Assembly (NCBI GenBank): GCA_021463145.1
Contig: JAJTWZ010000022.1
Coordinates: 1-64,000 of the forward strand
Length of the DNA: 64,000 nucleotides
Direction of reading: 5' to 3'
Origin: Blastocatellia bacterium
Lineage (GTDB): Bacteria; Acidobacteriota; Blastocatellia; UBA7656; JADIYM01
The notes under the pieces were generated by a model, which was given only the letters and a program-made list of their open reading frames with translations, made no database searches and was not told where the DNA came from. Position 1 is the stretch's first letter. Each line of letters begins with the position of its first letter. This document shows, piece after piece, positions 43,936-53,340 of this stretch. Position numbers and translations under genes: made by a program.

Positions 43936-46900
43936 ATGAAACTGCACGCACGCATTGCAGCGATCGTCGTCGTCACGGCGTCGCTCGCACCGTTCGTCCT
44001 TGCTGTCCACTCGCAGGACATTCGGCCCGCCGACGATGCTGGAGGCACGATTCGAGGGCGCGTCATCGGCGGCGGAGATCGCCCCGTCGGCGGCGTGCGC
44101 GTTGTAGTGAGCGGCCGCGGCATCTTTACCGAGACCGCACTCACTCGCGAAGACGGCTCGTTCGAAGTAAAGGTGCCGAGCCTCGGCGCCTACACCATCA
44201 GACTCGATGCTCCGGGATACAGACCTGCACGGGCCACGGCTCGAATCGACCAGCCTCTCCAGACCGTCGATCCGGTAATCCGGCTCGTTCCGGCCTCGTT
44301 GCGAGTTCGGGTCTTCAGCACTGGAGGTAACCAGGGACTGCCCGGAGTGTCCATCGTCGTCACGGCACACGAAGGCGGCGAGCCGTTAAACGGCGTTACC
44401 GACGCGAGCGGAGACTGCTACTTCGGAGCAATGCGTGCCGGTTGGTACTCGATCAAGGCTACTCTCGTCGGGTACGAGCCCGGCTCCGACGACGTCCTGA
44501 TTGCCTCGAGTTCCGAGATGGCAATGTCGTCCATCGCCCTGTCGAAGGGATCGTCGATTCCCGTTGCCCGATCGCGCCAGCGCTATGGAACGCCGAAGTT
44601 GCCATCGGATGAAGTACGACAGATTGCCCAGGACGATCTCGGGCTCATGTGGTTCGCGACGAATCGCGGCGTTGCGCGATTCGATGGCGCCGACTTCGAG
44701 TCGAGCAGCGCACAGGGATCCGAGCTTTCGTCACTCGACAACGTCGATGTGCGCTCCGTAGCTCTCGCCGGCGGGTCCTTGCTCTTCGGGACGGTCGATG
44801 GCCTCTCGATGTTGCGCAATGGCGCGATGGAACACGTGCCCGAGTTCGACGGTCTCACAGTGAACGACATCTACGAGGACGCGCCCGGCTCGGTGTGGGT
44901 GGCATCGTCGGAGGGACTGTTCAGAAAAGGGCAGGAAGCCTATTCGCGAGTGCTCCCCGGTTCATTCGCGTCGATTTCGGTGGACCCGCTGGATGGCTCA
45001 CTCTGGTTTGCGGGTGGCGAGATCGGTGGCGCCACGAGGTACGCCGGTGGAGAGCTCGAGCCGATCGAGTTCGCTACTCCGGCTCTGCTGGATGGGCACT
45101 CGGTGACTACGGTTCACCGGCTCGGGAAGGGCGACTTGCTGCTCGGTACGACAGGTGGCGTCTATCGCCTTGTGGATGGCCGGCCTACGCCGTTTCTGCG
45201 TGAGCTGGTGGTTGGAGCCGTCACGTCCATCGTGAGCGATGCGCAAGGCAACATCTGGTTCGGCACCGACAAGGGAGCACTGCTCTACGACATTCGCCTT
45301 CAGGCGTCGAGTCTCGACTTCGCCGGCGAGCACATCAACGACCTTACCCTGGATCGCGAGGGTAACCTGTGGTTTGCGACTGACAAGGGCGCGATACGCC
45401 GCGATCTTTACAGCTTCGTTCCCATACGAACGAGCGACGGCCTGCTCAACAACAACGTGAGCTGGATCTACCCGGATCGCGCCGGCGACGGCAGCCCTCG
45501 AGTGTGGCTGGTCACCTCCGGCGGTGTCCAGATTTACAGCTCGTCCTCGACGTTTCAGGAGTTCACGTTTCCCGATCCGGAGGCCCGAGTCCACCACGTG
45601 ATTCGCGACCGTGCCGGCGCCCTCTGGTTCGCGACGTCAAAAGGTATTTTCAGGATTGTTGGCGCGATCAGCGACCGGGTGAGTGAGACGGCGGCAACTT
45701 GGGTCGCCGAGGCAGGCAATGGTCAGCTGTATGCGGCCACGCAGTCAGGCGCCGCAGTGTTCAACGGCTCGGCATTCGAGAGCGTCACTGACCTCGCCGG
45801 CTTTGCCCCTTCCCGGCTCTTTGCGATCGGTGAAGACATCTGGCTCGCAACCGACGACGGCGCCGTTCGGTACTTGCCGTCGCGGCACCTTGTCGAGTCT
45901 ATCGACGTCAGTCGTGGAGTACAGGGAGAAACCGTGCGCTGGGTCGAGTCGGACTCCATTGGCCGCGTGTGGTTGGCGACCGACTTTGGCATCGAGATTC
46001 TGGACGGAAAGTCGCTCACGAAACTCGAGGGAAACGCCGGCGTCAGCGCCGGATCCGATGCGAGGACGCTTTCCCTGGATTCGGATGGATTCATGTGGGT
46101 CGGGTCGGCCGAGGGGACCGTCCGAAAGATCGCGTCCTACGAAGGCGGCGTCATCGAGACGACGTTCTCCGCAGACCAGGGTATTCCCGGGTCACTCGTC
46201 AGCGCGATCGCGCAGGACGGGAACGGTACGATCTGGTTTGCGACCGACGGTGGCGCTTCGAAGCATCGGCCGGGCAGGATGCTGCCGACGCTCCTTCCGC
46301 GTATCGAGGTCGACGGACGCACATTCCAGGCTGGCGGCACCGTGCCGGCCGGACAGCACACGATCCGCTTCCTGTTTCGCGGGATCACGATGCTCGGCGA
46401 TGCGCGTTACCTTTACCGTCTGGATGAGGACGGCCCGTGGCAGCAGTTGCCACCGCGGCAGGAGGCGGAACGGGAGGTAGTCTTCACGGATCTCGCCGCC
46501 GGCGAACACTCTTTTCAGCTACGGGTCCTGAATAGGGATCTGTTCGGGCTTGAGACCGAACCAGTCGTGCTCAGGCTTCGCATAGACGTGCCAATGTGGC
46601 GAAAGTGGTGGTTCTGGTCGCTGCTCGCGGTTGCGGCCTTGGGGGCAGGCGTGGGAGCTACGGTGTTCGTGCGTGTGCGCTCCCGAGAGTACGTGCTCCC
46701 GCCCGAACTTCAGAGTTACGTTCCGATCGAGCCGAATCCGTTCATCGTTGGAAATCCGATTCGCAACGAGGCGATGTTTTTTGGCCGCGAGGACGATTTC
46801 CGCTATGTGCGCACGAAGCTGGAAGGAGCGGCGCAAGGGTGCGTCGTCGTTCTGTGTGGCGAACGGCGCACGGGGAAGAGCTCCATTCTCTATCAGATTC

Positions 46901-47880
46901 TCAACAAGCGCCTGGGGGATCGGTTCATCCCGGTCTTCGTCGACCTTCAGGAAATGGTCGTATCGAACGACCGAGAGTTCTTCCGCCGCGTTGCGCGACT
47001 GACAGCTGAAGCGGTTCGGCTCGATCGGGCCTTCGTGGACGGGTTTCGAATCGATGACGAGTCGCTGAACCCGTACCACCAGTTCGTCGATTTTCTCGAT
47101 GAAGTGCTCTCGAGAATCGACGATCGTGTCCTGTTGCTTCTGATGGACGAGTATGAACTGCTGGAGACGAAGGCAGACGAGGGAAGGCTCAACCCCGAAA
47201 TCTTCCTGTTTCTCGCGGGCCTGATGGACAACAAGGAGCGGCTCTCGTTCGTTTTCACCGGATCGCGCCGTCTGGAGGAACGGGACAGGCGCTACTGGCG
47301 CGAGATGCTGCGCCGCTCACAGTTTCGAAAGATCGCCTTCCTCAGCGAGAACGACGCCCGCCGGCTGATCACCGAGCCGGTCGAGGGCAGGGTAGTTTAT
47401 GGACGCAACGTGATCGATCGCATCGTCAGGCTGACGGCAGGGCAACCCTTCTACACGCAGGTCATCTGCCAGAACGTCGTCGACTACCTGAACGAGCACG
47501 AGAAGAATGCAATCACGATGCGTGAGCTCAACGGCGTCGTCGACGAAATCATCGACCACCCGTTGCCACAGATGATCTACTTCTGGGACGCCCTTTCGGC
47601 CGACGAGAAGGTCGTTCTTTCGCTCCTGGCTCACACGCTTGACGCGCCGCGTGAGCGCAGTTGGGCGACTGCCGCCGACATCGGCGACGTCGCTGCACGC
47701 GAGCGCGCTCCGGTCGACCTATCGGAGAACACCATTCATCTGACCCTCGAGGAACTGTTCAGGACGGATGTGCTCGAGAAGAATCCGTTCGAAGCCTACC
47801 GCTTCCGCATCGATCTGTTGAGGCTCTGGATCCGTCGCAGTCACTCAATCTGGGAAGTCATCAAGGGAAATCTCCAGTGA
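43936..47880 (+). CDS. Transmembrane two-propeller sensor fused to STAND/AAA-like NTPase
   Basis: 1314-residue protein. Signal peptide (1-27); two carboxypeptidase-regulatory-like beta domains (about 36-110 and 120-200); 14 Reg_prop motifs such as GLMWFATNRGVARF, GNIWFGTDKGALLY and GTIWFATDGGASKH (about 210-780), enough for two seven-bladed propellers; a Y_Y_Y-like domain (about 800-885); one membrane helix (about 890-912). The cytoplasmic part holds, instead of a histidine kinase, a P-loop NTPase: Walker A G975-ERRT-GKSS, Walker B LLLLMDE (D1071 E1072), sensor-like FVFTGSRR and a winged-helix-like end. The periplasmic half matches hybrid two-component sensors for polysaccharides. The downstream gene overlaps by GTGA. 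Function unknown; ligand-gated NTPase signalling is inferred. Confidence 0.87.
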   Translation: MKLHARIAAIVVVTASLAPFVLAVHSQDIRPADDAGGTIRGRVIGGGDRPVGGVRVVVSGRGIFTETALTREDGSFEVKVPSLGAYTIRLDAPGYRPARATARIDQPLQTVDPVIRLVPASLRVRVFSTGGNQGLPGVSIVVTAHEGGEPLNGVTDASGDCYFGAMRAGWYSIKATLVGYEPGSDDVLIASSSEMAMSSIALSKGSSIPVARSRQRYGTPKLPSDEVRQIAQDDLGLMWFATNRGVARFDGADFESSSAQGSELSSLDNVDVRSVALAGGSLLFGTVDGLSMLRNGAMEHVPEFDGLTVNDIYEDAPGSVWVASSEGLFRKGQEAYSRVLPGSFASISVDPLDGSLWFAGGEIGGATRYAGGELEPIEFATPALLDGHSVTTVHRLGKGDLLLGTTGGVYRLVDGRPTPFLRELVVGAVTSIVSDAQGNIWFGTDKGALLYDIRLQASSLDFAGEHINDLTLDREGNLWFATDKGAIRRDLYSFVPIRTSDGLLNNNVSWIYPDRAGDGSPRVWLVTSGGVQIYSSSSTFQEFTFPDPEARVHHVIRDRAGALWFATSKGIFRIVGAISDRVSETAATWVAEAGNGQLYAATQSGAAVFNGSAFESVTDLAGFAPSRLFAIGEDIWLATDDGAVRYLPSRHLVESIDVSRGVQGETVRWVESDSIGRVWLATDFGIEILDGKSLTKLEGNAGVSAGSDARTLSLDSDGFMWVGSAEGTVRKIASYEGGVIETTFSADQGIPGSLVSAIAQDGNGTIWFATDGGASKHRPGRMLPTLLPRIEVDGRTFQAGGTVPAGQHTIRFLFRGITMLGDARYLYRLDEDGPWQQLPPRQEAEREVVFTDLAAGEHSFQLRVLNRDLFGLETEPVVLRLRIDVPMWRKWWFWSLLAVAALGAGVGATVFVRVRSREYVLPPELQSYVPIEPNPFIVGNPIRNEAMFFGREDDFRYVRTKLEGAAQGCVVVLCGERRTGKSSILYQILNKRLGDRFIPVFVDLQEMVVSNDREFFRRVARLTAEAVRLDRAFVDGFRIDDESLNPYHQFVDFLDEVLSRIDDRVLLLLMDEYELLETKADEGRLNPEIFLFLAGLMDNKERLSFVFTGSRRLEERDRRYWREMLRRSQFRKIAFLSENDARRLITEPVEGRVVYGRNVIDRIVRLTAGQPFYTQVICQNVVDYLNEHEKNAITMRELNGVVDEIIDHPLPQMIYFWDALSADEKVVLSLLAHTLDAPRERSWATAADIGDVAARERAPVDLSENTIHLTLEELFRTDVLEKNPFEAYRFRIDLLRLWIRRSHSIWEVIKGNLQ

Positions 47881-48578
47881 ACAAGCTCGAACTGAAGAAT
47901 CAGACGCTCATCGCTTCGCATTCGGTGCTGGCCGGAATGACGCGATTCATCCCGGTGCCGTTCGTAGACGACATGGTGCAGAGCTACGTGCTGCGCCGGA
48001 TGATCCGGCGCCTCGCGGAGAGCTACGGCGTCACGCTGGCCGAAGACGATGCCGAGACGCTGGGCACCGAGCCCGGCGGGGGGTGCGGCGGGTGCCTGTT
48101 GTCCGCGGTGTTCTATCCATTGAAGTGGGTGCTTCGAAAGGTGTTCTTCTTCCTCGAGATGAAGCGCTCCGTGGACCTGCTCAGCCGCGTCTACCATCGC
48201 GGCGTTCTCGTGGAGTACGCGATGCAGCAGAAGTGGATCGGGCTGGATGCCGGGCGGTCAGCCCCGGACGTCCGGCGTGCGATCGATCAGGTTCTTCGCG
48301 AGTCGCCGATTCGTCCCGTTGAAGAGGCGGCGAAGTTGACCTTCCGGCAGTTCAGCGGACCCTTCAGAGCTGCCATTCGACTGCTGCGATCGGCGACTAG
48401 CGGGCTTACGAAGCAATCGTCCGCGGACGATGTCGAGAACGTCCTGGAAGCGGTGCCGGCCGAGGAGAAGAAGCAGTTCGATGGTCTCGTGGCCTCGCTG
48501 GTAGGGCGCATCAATTCCATTCCGTCCGAGCACTTCGACGCAATGAAAAAGGGGCTCGACAAGCTCATGAAGGAGTAG
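47877..48578 (+). CDS. DUF697-like protein, partner of the propeller-NTPase
   Basis: 233 residues. The N-terminal segment SVLAGMTRFIPVPFVDD (about 14-30), then RRMIRRLAESYGV, strongly resembles DUF697/YcjF-type domains that accompany GTPases and insert into membranes. A glycine/cysteine-rich GGGCGGC (71-77) precedes a hydrophobic stretch with basic ends (LKWVLRKVFFFLEMK). The rest is helical and charged. GTG overlaps the stop of the propeller-NTPase gene by four bases, so the two are translationally coupled and almost certainly act together. Product and mechanism unknown. Confidence 0.75.
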   Translation: MNKLELKNQTLIASHSVLAGMTRFIPVPFVDDMVQSYVLRRMIRRLAESYGVTLAEDDAETLGTEPGGGCGGCLLSAVFYPLKWVLRKVFFFLEMKRSVDLLSRVYHRGVLVEYAMQQKWIGLDAGRSAPDVRRAIDQVLRESPIRPVEEAAKLTFRQFSGPFRAAIRLLRSATSGLTKQSSADDVENVLEAVPAEEKKQFDGLVASLVGRINSIPSEHFDAMKKGLDKLMKE

Positions 48579-50781: not shown

Positions 50782-51833
50782 TTTGCGCTTTCCGATCTGA
50801 TGTCGCTGGCCCACGTCGACATCCACGACTTGATGTTCATCCTGTACAGGTTCCAATCCATCGGGAGTTTCTTGTACTGAAGGTCTCTGGCCCACTCGGG
50901 AAGCGTCGATCGGTCCAGGTCGCTGCGCGCCGGAATACGGTAGAACGCATCCGCCGCGAAAGCGAGATTGTCGGGCCGTCCACAGAACTCGTAAAAGAGC
51001 CGGGCGCCTTCGGCACGAGGCGCGCCCCGGACGATTGCGATCGCATCCGTCACCACGGGCGAGCCCGATTTCGGATAGACGATGGCGAGCGCGTAGCCTC
51101 GCTCACGTATGACCCGGCTCACGTCGGGCAGGTTCCAGGCGGTGATGTCGGCTTCCTGGCGGTTGATCCGCAGGAGCAGGCTGTCCCAGCTGGTCGGATA
51201 GTCCTTCGTGTTGCGCGCGAGGCCTCGCAGCCATTCGAAGCCGGCTTCTGGCCCGTTCGTCTCCGGCCACCTGCGCATGATCATTGCGCCAAAGATAGTC
51301 CGCATCGTGTCCGACGGGTTTGGGTCGCGAATGAGAATCCGTTGGTGCCACTTCGGATCGAGCAGATCGTCCCAATCGCGCGGTGCCTCGGATTCGGGAA
51401 TGACGGCCGTGCTGTAGGCGATGATCTCGGGCGTTTCGTATAGGCCCGCCCACCGCCATTCGGCATCGTGAGCGTCGTCGGCGATGGCGCGTGAATAACT
51501 TGGCTCGTATGGTTCGAGCAGTCCTTCGTTTGCGGCGTCCGAAAACGTGACCGCGCTCGCACCGAACCAGACATCGGCCTGCGGATTCATTCGTTCGGCT
51601 CGAAGCCGGTCCGGAATGTTCTGAGACGGCAGGTCGAAAGTCTGAACGTCGAACTGCGGGTACTCGGCCTCGAATCGCATCTCGAATGCATCGAGCAGCG
51701 CCTGACCGTGCGGAGAGTAGACGACGAGCGGCGTACGCCCATCGCCCGAGCAGGCCAGGGTGGCGAAGCCGACTGCGAACAGCAGCACTAACGCCGTGCG
51801 GCGAGTCGCAGGGAGTCTGCGCCTTCGAGTCAT
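50778..51833 (-). CDS. Extracellular solute-binding lipoprotein, Fe3+/FbpA type
   Basis: Substrate-binding protein of the family-1 ABC group, 351 residues. An Arg-rich start, a hydrophobic helix and the lipobox LACS (C28) point to a lipoprotein. LVVYSPHGQALLDAFEMRFE, followed by the DVWFGASAVTF segment, matches iron- and thiamine/phosphonate-type binding proteins; a C-terminal RIPARSDL is also family-like. The ATG at 51833 starts just before the lipobox region. First gene of a two-gene unit with the ATPase. The ligand is not decided by sequence. Confidence 0.85.
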   Translation of the reverse strand: MTRRRRLPATRRTALVLLFAVGFATLACSGDGRTPLVVYSPHGQALLDAFEMRFEAEYPQFDVQTFDLPSQNIPDRLRAERMNPQADVWFGASAVTFSDAANEGLLEPYEPSYSRAIADDAHDAEWRWAGLYETPEIIAYSTAVIPESEAPRDWDDLLDPKWHQRILIRDPNPSDTMRTIFGAMIMRRWPETNGPEAGFEWLRGLARNTKDYPTSWDSLLLRINRQEADITAWNLPDVSRVIRERGYALAIVYPKSGSPVVTDAIAIVRGAPRAEGARLFYEFCGRPDNLAFAADAFYRIPARSDLDRSTLPEWARDLQYKKLPMDWNLYRMNIKSWMSTWASDIRSESAK

Positions 51834-52086
51834 CGAAGCAGCGTCACCGGACAGGCTTGCACGCCGAAGACGAATGGCCTGCCCGCTCGATGAAGAGACT
51901 TTCATTCCAGGTCGCGCTCGAACCACCATTGGGGTTCGGGCGAACGGCGCCCGAGGTTTCGAGAAAGAATTTCCGGTACGGATCGCAGTAGCGATTCCAT
52001 CCTATCGCGTTCATACGGTACAAGGTATCGGCGCTGCGGGCCACGTGGGCGCCTTGCAGCAAGGAACACGTGTCAGGAGCCAGCCA

Positions 52087-53340
52087 ATGCCGCCGACGAA
52101 GGTCTCGTTGATAGTCCAGCCAGGGGACAGCTTCTTTCCGATCGTCAATGCCCTGGACAAGGCCCAGACGTCGGTGAACATTACGGTCTTCCGGATGGAC
52201 GACCCGATCATCCAGCAGGCCATGGTCGAAGCGGTGCGCCGGGGCGTTCGCGTCAGGGCACTCATCGCCACGAGCGCCCGGGGATGGGGAGAGGCGAACA
52301 AGCGGCTCCTGAAGGAAGCTCGCAAGGCCGGGATCGAGATCAAGGAGCCAGCGGGCGACAGCAAGAAGACGCGTTTCCATTACAAGATAATGATGGTGGA
52401 CGGCAGGCAATCGCTCGTCTTCACCTTCAACCCGACTCGCGAGAACCTCCACTACACGCGCGACTTCGGAGTGATCGTCTTCGACGACGCAACGACAGCG
52501 GAGTTGAACAGGCTGTTCGATGCGGACTGGAACGACGCGGTCTTCGAGCCGAGGAAGGCTTCGGATCTCCTCGTTAGTCCCTACACCAGCCGCGCGGGCA
52601 TGGAAGCCCTGCTTGGCGGTGCGAAGAAGTCGATTCATCTGTGGGATGCGAAGGTTGAAGACCCGGCGATTCTAGAGATCCTTCGCGGCAAGGTCGCGCA
52701 GGGTCTGGACGTGCGAGTCCTCGGGGACGAGAAGTCGCCGTTTGGAACCGGCGCCGGGGAGCCGGGATTTCGCGCCATTACCCGTTTCAAGCTGCACGCG
52801 AAGTGCGTTGTCGTCGACGGCGAGCGAGCCGCGCTTGGCAGCATGAATCTGCGCACGCAGAGCTTCGACCGTCGCCGCGAGGTCGCAATCGTTGTGAAGG
52901 ACGAAGCGGTCGTAAAGAAGCTATCCGGCATTTTCGATTCGGACTGGGAACAGAAGGCGCCGGCCTCGGGGTCGGCGAAGACGCTCGTGCGGGCGAACAT
53001 TACGGCCTCCGACGTCGCGGCGGCAGTTGCGTCTGCCGGAGCCACGGTCAAAGGACTCGTGCTCATCTCGCGCACCGATGCCCTGCGCAGGCACGAACTT
53101 GGCGCGGGCGTCACGACCGTCGGAAGATCGGACGAGAACGACATCGTAATCGGCGAAGCCTCGGTTAGCCGTCATCACGCTCGATTTTTCGTCGACGGCT
53201 CCAAGTGCGACGTCTCGGATCTGGAAAGCGCGAATGGAACTTTCATCAATGGCGAGCCGCTCAAAGGGTCTCGCCGTCTCGTTCCTGGCGACGTCATCGG
53301 GATCGCCGACGAAGAGGAGTTCCGGCTTGTCGAGTTATAG
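52087..53340 (+). CDS. Phospholipase-D-like enzyme fused to FHA domain
   Basis: 417 residues. Two HKD motifs are present: HYKIMMVD (H98, K100) and HAKCVVVD (H237, K239) with GSMN following, so a complete PLD/transphosphatidylase-type active site could form. The C-terminal ~90 residues are an FHA domain (TTVGRSDENDIVIG, SVSRHHARF, ESANGTFING). No signal peptide is seen, so it is probably cytoplasmic. The ATG at 52087 has AGGAG (52075-52079). It could be a lipid-, nucleic-acid- or cardiolipin-synthase-type enzyme steered by protein phosphorylation; the fusion is unusual. Confidence 0.85.
   Translation: MPPTKVSLIVQPGDSFFPIVNALDKAQTSVNITVFRMDDPIIQQAMVEAVRRGVRVRALIATSARGWGEANKRLLKEARKAGIEIKEPAGDSKKTRFHYKIMMVDGRQSLVFTFNPTRENLHYTRDFGVIVFDDATTAELNRLFDADWNDAVFEPRKASDLLVSPYTSRAGMEALLGGAKKSIHLWDAKVEDPAILEILRGKVAQGLDVRVLGDEKSPFGTGAGEPGFRAITRFKLHAKCVVVDGERAALGSMNLRTQSFDRRREVAIVVKDEAVVKKLSGIFDSDWEQKAPASGSAKTLVRANITASDVAAAVASAGATVKGLVLISRTDALRRHELGAGVTTVGRSDENDIVIGEASVSRHHARFFVDGSKCDVSDLESANGTFINGEPLKGSRRLVPGDVIGIADEEEFRLVEL

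Follow-up and report, generated by a model that had tools for sequence, protein, structure and literature searches.

Results

In the present study, a stretch of 64,000 nucleotides from a member of the Blastocatellia, Acidobacteriota (the window) was analysed. Gene A lies at 43936-47880 on the plus strand, which carries all of its features given below, and its reading frame is open throughout its 1314 codons; the interruption by sequencing errors that the preliminary description had considered was not found. The encoded protein (1314 aa) consists of a periplasmic propeller sensor, a membrane helix and a STAND NTPase. It starts with a signal peptide (residues 1-25, 43936-44010; hydrophobic segment 7-25), followed by two CarboxypepD_reg-like domains at residues 38-105 (44047-44250; PF13620) and 126-194 (44311-44517; PF13715). 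A Reg_prop double beta-propeller occupies approximately residues 214-777 (44575-46266) and a Y_Y_Y-like beta-sandwich approximately residues 789-883 (46300-46584). The single membrane helix at residues 896-914 (46621-46677) has a position common to the orthologues. Only two helices, 7-25 and 896-914, were found by hydropathy, and the Pfam search gave Reg_prop with an E of 5.6e-33 and CarboxypepD_reg twice (best 2.6e-19), so that the signal peptide, the single membrane helix and the two CarboxypepD_reg-like domains read earlier from the letters are all borne out. No histidine kinase, receiver or HTH was found in the chain of protein A by Pfam.

The AlphaFold2 model of residues 26-894 (pLDDT 87) contains two small domains of beta structure, strands amounting to about 14 blades across some 560 residues, and a beta sandwich at its C-terminus. 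Its best Foldseek matches, which run almost from end to end with E of about 1e-32 to 1e-29, are the periplasmic domains of the HTCS sensors BT4673, BT4663 and BT3049. Pfam did not call a Y_Y_Y domain, but the end-to-end agreement with HTCS sensor domains supports the Y_Y_Y-like assignment made previously. Of the 14 Reg_prop motifs once counted, the number of blades agrees with the model, but the sequence motifs do not reach it: a strict pattern gives 8 matches and a looser one 11.

The cytoplasmic A-type STAND NTPase spans residues 931-1310 (46726-47865), as delimited by alignments, AlphaFold2 and Foldseek. Its motifs are Walker A GERRTGKSS (975-983), Walker B LLLLMDEYE (1066-1074) and GQPFY (1169-1173), with Arg1131 as a candidate trans-acting residue; G975, K981, D1071 and E1072 of the preliminary description are exact, and both Walker motifs are intact. 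In Pfam, AAA_22, ATPase_2 and nSTAND1 match weakly over residues 940-1170, and nSTAND2 (PF20702) reaches a sub-threshold E of 4.5e-4. Alignments of the A orthologues show that FGRE, GERRxGKSS, DEYE and GQPFY are kept; the STAND features GRE, Walker A, Walker B and GxP are thus present on an AAA+/Orc-like core with a winged helix. Since the profile of this domain had no match among PDB sequences, its fold was predicted instead. The AlphaFold2 model (pLDDT 90, pTM 0.86) resembles Cdc6/Orc1, archaeal ATPase_2 proteins and, lower down, a plant NLR in Foldseek, and it has the winged-helix-like end that had been proposed. The structure prediction suggested as a check on protein A yielded an HTCS-type outer part and a Cdc6-like NTPase inside. 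A periplasmic NTPase half, which would have spoken against the original reading, is argued against by hydropathy, as the NTPase is cytoplasmic in both domain orders found for A.

Gene B, at 47877-48578 on the plus strand, encodes a 233-aa DUF697-like protein that is probably no conserved part of a system. As described earlier, it starts inside the stop codon of A: its GTG at 47877 overlaps the TGA at 47878-47880, giving an overlap of 4 bp, and a ribosome-binding-like AAGGGA lies upstream. The match to DUF697 (PF05128) is weak (20.9 bits, E 3.2e-4, positions 32-77 of 162) and stays below the Pfam gathering cut-off of 27.7 bits. G69, C70, G72 and C73 of the GGGCGGC stretch are invariant across 11 homologues. 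A total of 12 among the 98 Blastocatellia genomes contain gene B, one of them being that of the window; of the 11 others, nine carry A on a separate contig, and A is absent from G080 and G094. Half of the 20 A-bearing genomes carry B and 10 do not. In the adjacency comparison, which covered genomes outside the window genome's own family, tblastn placed B beside A in none of the loci fetched around A orthologues. The overlap is real in the window genome, but the arrangement is not conserved, and in this lineage B most likely came to lie beside A in one operon by chance. B as a conserved partner of A was rejected on these co-occurrence and neighbourhood checks. Consequently the co-occurrence check attached to the coupled pair of A and B speaks against it, and membrane remodelling by that pair lacks comparative support; the rest of the earlier interpretation of A, namely an HTCS-type periplasmic sensor, one helix and a cytoplasmic STAND NTPase with no kinase, receiver or HTH, is retained. 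About 3.2 kb 3' of B, a gene at 51760-53340 (plus strand) encodes a protein that carries a pair of PLD-like domains and, at its C-terminus, an FHA domain, which is a phosphothreonine binder.

In families f2 and f8, a gene of about 650 aa encoding an NTPase and then a protein kinase (K) lies downstream of A on the same strand, either immediately or with one or two genes in between. The window genome has a single copy of K, unlinked to A, on contig C35 (NTPase part at 75.0-76.0 kb; L100:8532-10514), which matches nSTAND2 (PF20702) with an E of 2e-65 and Pkinase with 6e-51. Its PknB-like kinase domain keeps the HRD, DFG and SPE motifs and looks like an active Ser/Thr kinase. The statement that no kinase follows A is correct in the window but misleading, because the next gene in relatives is usually this nSTAND2 NTPase-Ser/Thr kinase and the window genome carries K elsewhere. 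The branch of the window genome's K measures 0.71, compared with about 0.06-0.2 for the linked K of the sister family, which may reflect faster evolution once it had been separated from A.

The NTPase profiles of A and K align over their full length (probability 100, E 5e-41), and in the tree they form the two sides of one supported branch (support 99). Their trees mirror each other with a Mantel r of 0.91, a value that includes shared species history. Judged by these alignments and trees, A and K are homologous sister clades, cleanly separated and with mirrored branching, and their inheritance looks vertical rather than mobile. Walker A is intact in both sets; Walker B has DE in A and an invariant D in K, and the motifs are whole in nearly all K. 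An Arg at the box VII-like position (1131 in the window's A) occurs in 36 of 50 A-type sequences and in no K, which has there a nearly invariant SPFFNIF without Arg. This contrast is a hint of asymmetry between A and K, in which Arg1131 would be only a candidate trans-acting finger.

Among the 98 Blastocatellia, strong A matches were found in 20 genomes, K in 21 and both in 20; the odd genome, with K and no A, is an assembly 85% complete (G051). In an evenly drawn sample of 247 Acidobacteriota, A was found in 17, K in 17 and both in 16, with one strong copy each, and the exceptions are assemblies in 1130 contigs (G253) or 82% complete (G246). The association in this sample has a Fisher p of about 5e-23, uncorrected for relatedness. 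As relatives do not count as independent events, both the Fisher and the Mantel value are overstated, and the co-occurrence counts are inflated by shared species history. The two genes are close together on one contig in 8 of the 16 genomes and not in the other 8, hence co-retention does not merely reflect linkage: the pair is retained together even where unlinked.

A scan of the genome collection for adjacency, seeded with A alone, is less exposed to this inflation than co-occurrence or the Mantel value. It gave 37 loci, 31 of them with at least 2 kb downstream, and in 25 of these 31 K follows within 2.5 kb on A's strand, some ends overlapping; one of the 25 (L153) has a weak K only. Four of the remaining six belong to Blastocatellia whose K sits elsewhere in the genome. 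Adjacency was observed in seven phyla: Acidobacteriota, Gemmatimonadota, Glassiibacteriota, Latescibacterota, Spirochaetota, Thermodesulfobacteriota and Poribacteria. The two genes are unlinked in family f4 and in the genome of the window, and in both cases the partnership rests on co-retention. Genes between A and K include a Dam-like methylase (judged by eye; L052), a ThuA protein (L131) and, in Spirochaetales, a protein of about 305 aa; none was common to groups, and they were therefore not counted as parts.

The two NTPases stay constant while sensors and outputs vary, which makes them a modular pair. On the A side, the sensor is Reg_prop in Blastocatellia and Desulfobacterales, TPR in Glassbacteria and Gemmatimonadales, Peripla_BP_6 in another Acidobacteriota lineage and an FG-GAP/PQQ propeller in Ktedonobacteria; in Latescibacterota and Spirochaetales, PEGA stands after the membrane helix (NTPase-helix-sensor order). 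On the K side, the kinase is C-terminal in Acidobacteriota and N-terminal in other groups, Spirochaetales have a class III nucleotide cyclase (Guanylate_cyc), and a standalone K with no output domain also occurs.

Several loci differ in their surroundings. A four-gene run is seen in Spirochaetales (L136:8983-14865, L137, L138, L141, L144-L146), in the order A-NTPase with helix and PEGA, the protein of about 305 aa (which has a membrane segment in L136, the only copy checked), a K-type NTPase standing alone and a cyclase to which another K-type NTPase is fused. A large FG-GAP protein with FlgD_ig follows K at L133:12422-17440, and a separate Reg_prop protein lies shortly upstream of A at L134:6014-8893; both are possible extra sensor parts. 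In Poribacteria, a gene with Peptidase_C14 (caspase-like) and PEGA lies directly 3' of the pair (L149:11492-13654). In Blastocatellia family f6 (L117:5198-10800), an A-type NTPase is fused to HsdM (N6_Mtase) and HsdS (Methylase_S) and is followed by a K-type NTPase gene, which may be a restriction or defence version of the pair. Together with a distant Blastocatellia pair with HEAT repeats (L108), it hints at a conflict-related branch, and function may thus differ between branches.

Discussion

The best-supported reading of these results is a conserved two-NTPase signalling module, in which gene A is probably the receptor half of a transmembrane system with K. HTCS sensors bind polysaccharide-type signals, and the CarboxypepD-propeller-Y_Y_Y part of A, which has their fold, would likewise bind an envelope or polysaccharide signal. 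The change would then cross the one membrane helix predicted from sequence to the cytoplasmic A-type STAND NTPase, and this NTPase would assemble with its paralogue K, the nSTAND2 NTPase-Ser/Thr kinase to which the genomic evidence points. An NTP-dependent mixed ring of A and K may cluster or free the kinase domains, which would phosphorylate their targets; in Spirochaetales, the output driven by the corresponding assembly would be a class III nucleotide cyclase. More tentatively, and with a slight leaning towards doubt, such pairs could form a general signalling class parallel to two-component systems, with paralogous STAND proteins, an exchangeable sensor, an exchangeable kinase or cyclase output and a mixed NTPase ring.

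Other explanations have to be weighed against this module. That A is coupled to the DUF697-like B, its NTPase driving membrane insertion or remodelling by B, would fit the 4-bp overlap with AAGGGA upstream and the presence of B in 10 of 20 A-bearing Blastocatellia, which is above expectation when relatedness is uncorrected. B stands beside A in no other genome searched, though, either gene occurs without the other (10 A-bearing genomes without B, two B-bearing ones without A) and no family known to remodel membranes matches B strongly, so we consider this coupling very improbable. It also seems quite improbable that the NTPase of A is a lone homo-oligomeric switch and K an independent kinase with a common evolutionary history: the complete Walker motifs of A and the lack of linkage in the window's genome and f4 agree with this, but what speaks against it is that the two are retained together almost without exception over eight families, that they are adjacent in seven phyla and that their trees mirror each other.

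A defence role is unlikely, rather than very improbable. The pair would then be an anti-phage or conflict system whose propeller detects invaders, like the nSTAND2 operon of Kaur et al, and nSTAND2/STAND pairs have indeed been predicted to be counter-invader systems (PMC8195603); some distant relatives also have HsdM-HsdS or lie beside a caspase-domain gene. On the other hand, A and K are single-copy with mirrored trees, unlike mobile defence islands, neither NTPase is eroded and a kinase or cyclase stands in place of GT4 or HEPN as the output. Furthermore, protein A had no significant PADLOC match, and the matches of K come through its generic kinase domain only.

Reg_prop sensors are known as drivers of histidine kinases. 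Here such a sensor reaches a different output, a STAND switch with a paralogous NTPase-kinase or NTPase-cyclase. If the two-NTPase module is correct, outside signals would be tied to Ser/Thr phosphorylation or cyclic nucleotides by an assembly resembling the apoptosome, in many phyla that have received little study. The pair also gives nSTAND2 proteins, treated by Kaur et al (2021, PMC8195603) as parts of conflict systems, a testable role in ordinary signalling, and it provides structural work with a defined heteromeric STAND pair. Overall, our findings point to a little-known transmembrane signalling system across bacteria.

Comparison with known systems

In the literature searched (mainly open-licence, with few subscription journals), no description of a sensor-NTPase/NTPase-kinase pair was found. 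Receptors of the PASTA/PknB type convert an outside signal into a Hanks-type Ser/Thr kinase output. The present system resembles them in leading from outside to a Ser/Thr kinase, that of K being PknB-like, but its sensor and its kinase belong to two different proteins, which would be joined via the two NTPases. With HTCS (BT4663, BT3049), protein A shares the Reg_prop double propeller, the Y_Y_Y-like domain and the one membrane helix in sequence and fold; inside, it has a STAND NTPase in place of histidine kinase, receiver and HTH, and extra CarboxypepD_reg-like domains stand in front. Its sensor is HTCS-like, yet protein A is no HTCS. FGRE, Walker A and B, GxP and the winged-helix-like end are common to A and the STAND NTPases Apaf-1, NLRs and MalT, with their Cdc6/Orc-like fold, but A is a membrane receptor sensing from outside, and its partner is a paralogous NTPase-kinase.

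The nearest precedent is the two-gene nSTAND2 system of Kaur et al (eLife 2021, PMC8195603, Fig. 6C), a mobile operon predicted to be counter-invader, with one NTPase eroded, GT4 or HEPN effectors, a predicted toroidal hetero-multimer and a variable output domain on one partner. As in that system, A and K both encode a STAND NTPase (the genes being adjacent in 25 of 31 loci and apart in the window genome and f4), a ring of the two NTPases is predicted and the variable output domain belongs to one partner, and K is strongly nSTAND2; the window's A is sub-threshold for this family, but its profile is homologous to that of K. The differences are that both A and K keep their NTP-binding motifs, in A the NTPase is joined to a membrane helix and an envelope sensor, the outputs are Pkinase, Guanylate_cyc or none, and the genes are single-copy and tree-congruent. 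As to an arginine finger in both partners, a candidate Arg is present in 36 of 50 A and in no K. Following the same plan without the eroded NTPase, the effectors and the mobility, the A-K pair is thus a variant of the nSTAND2 system and not a member of it.
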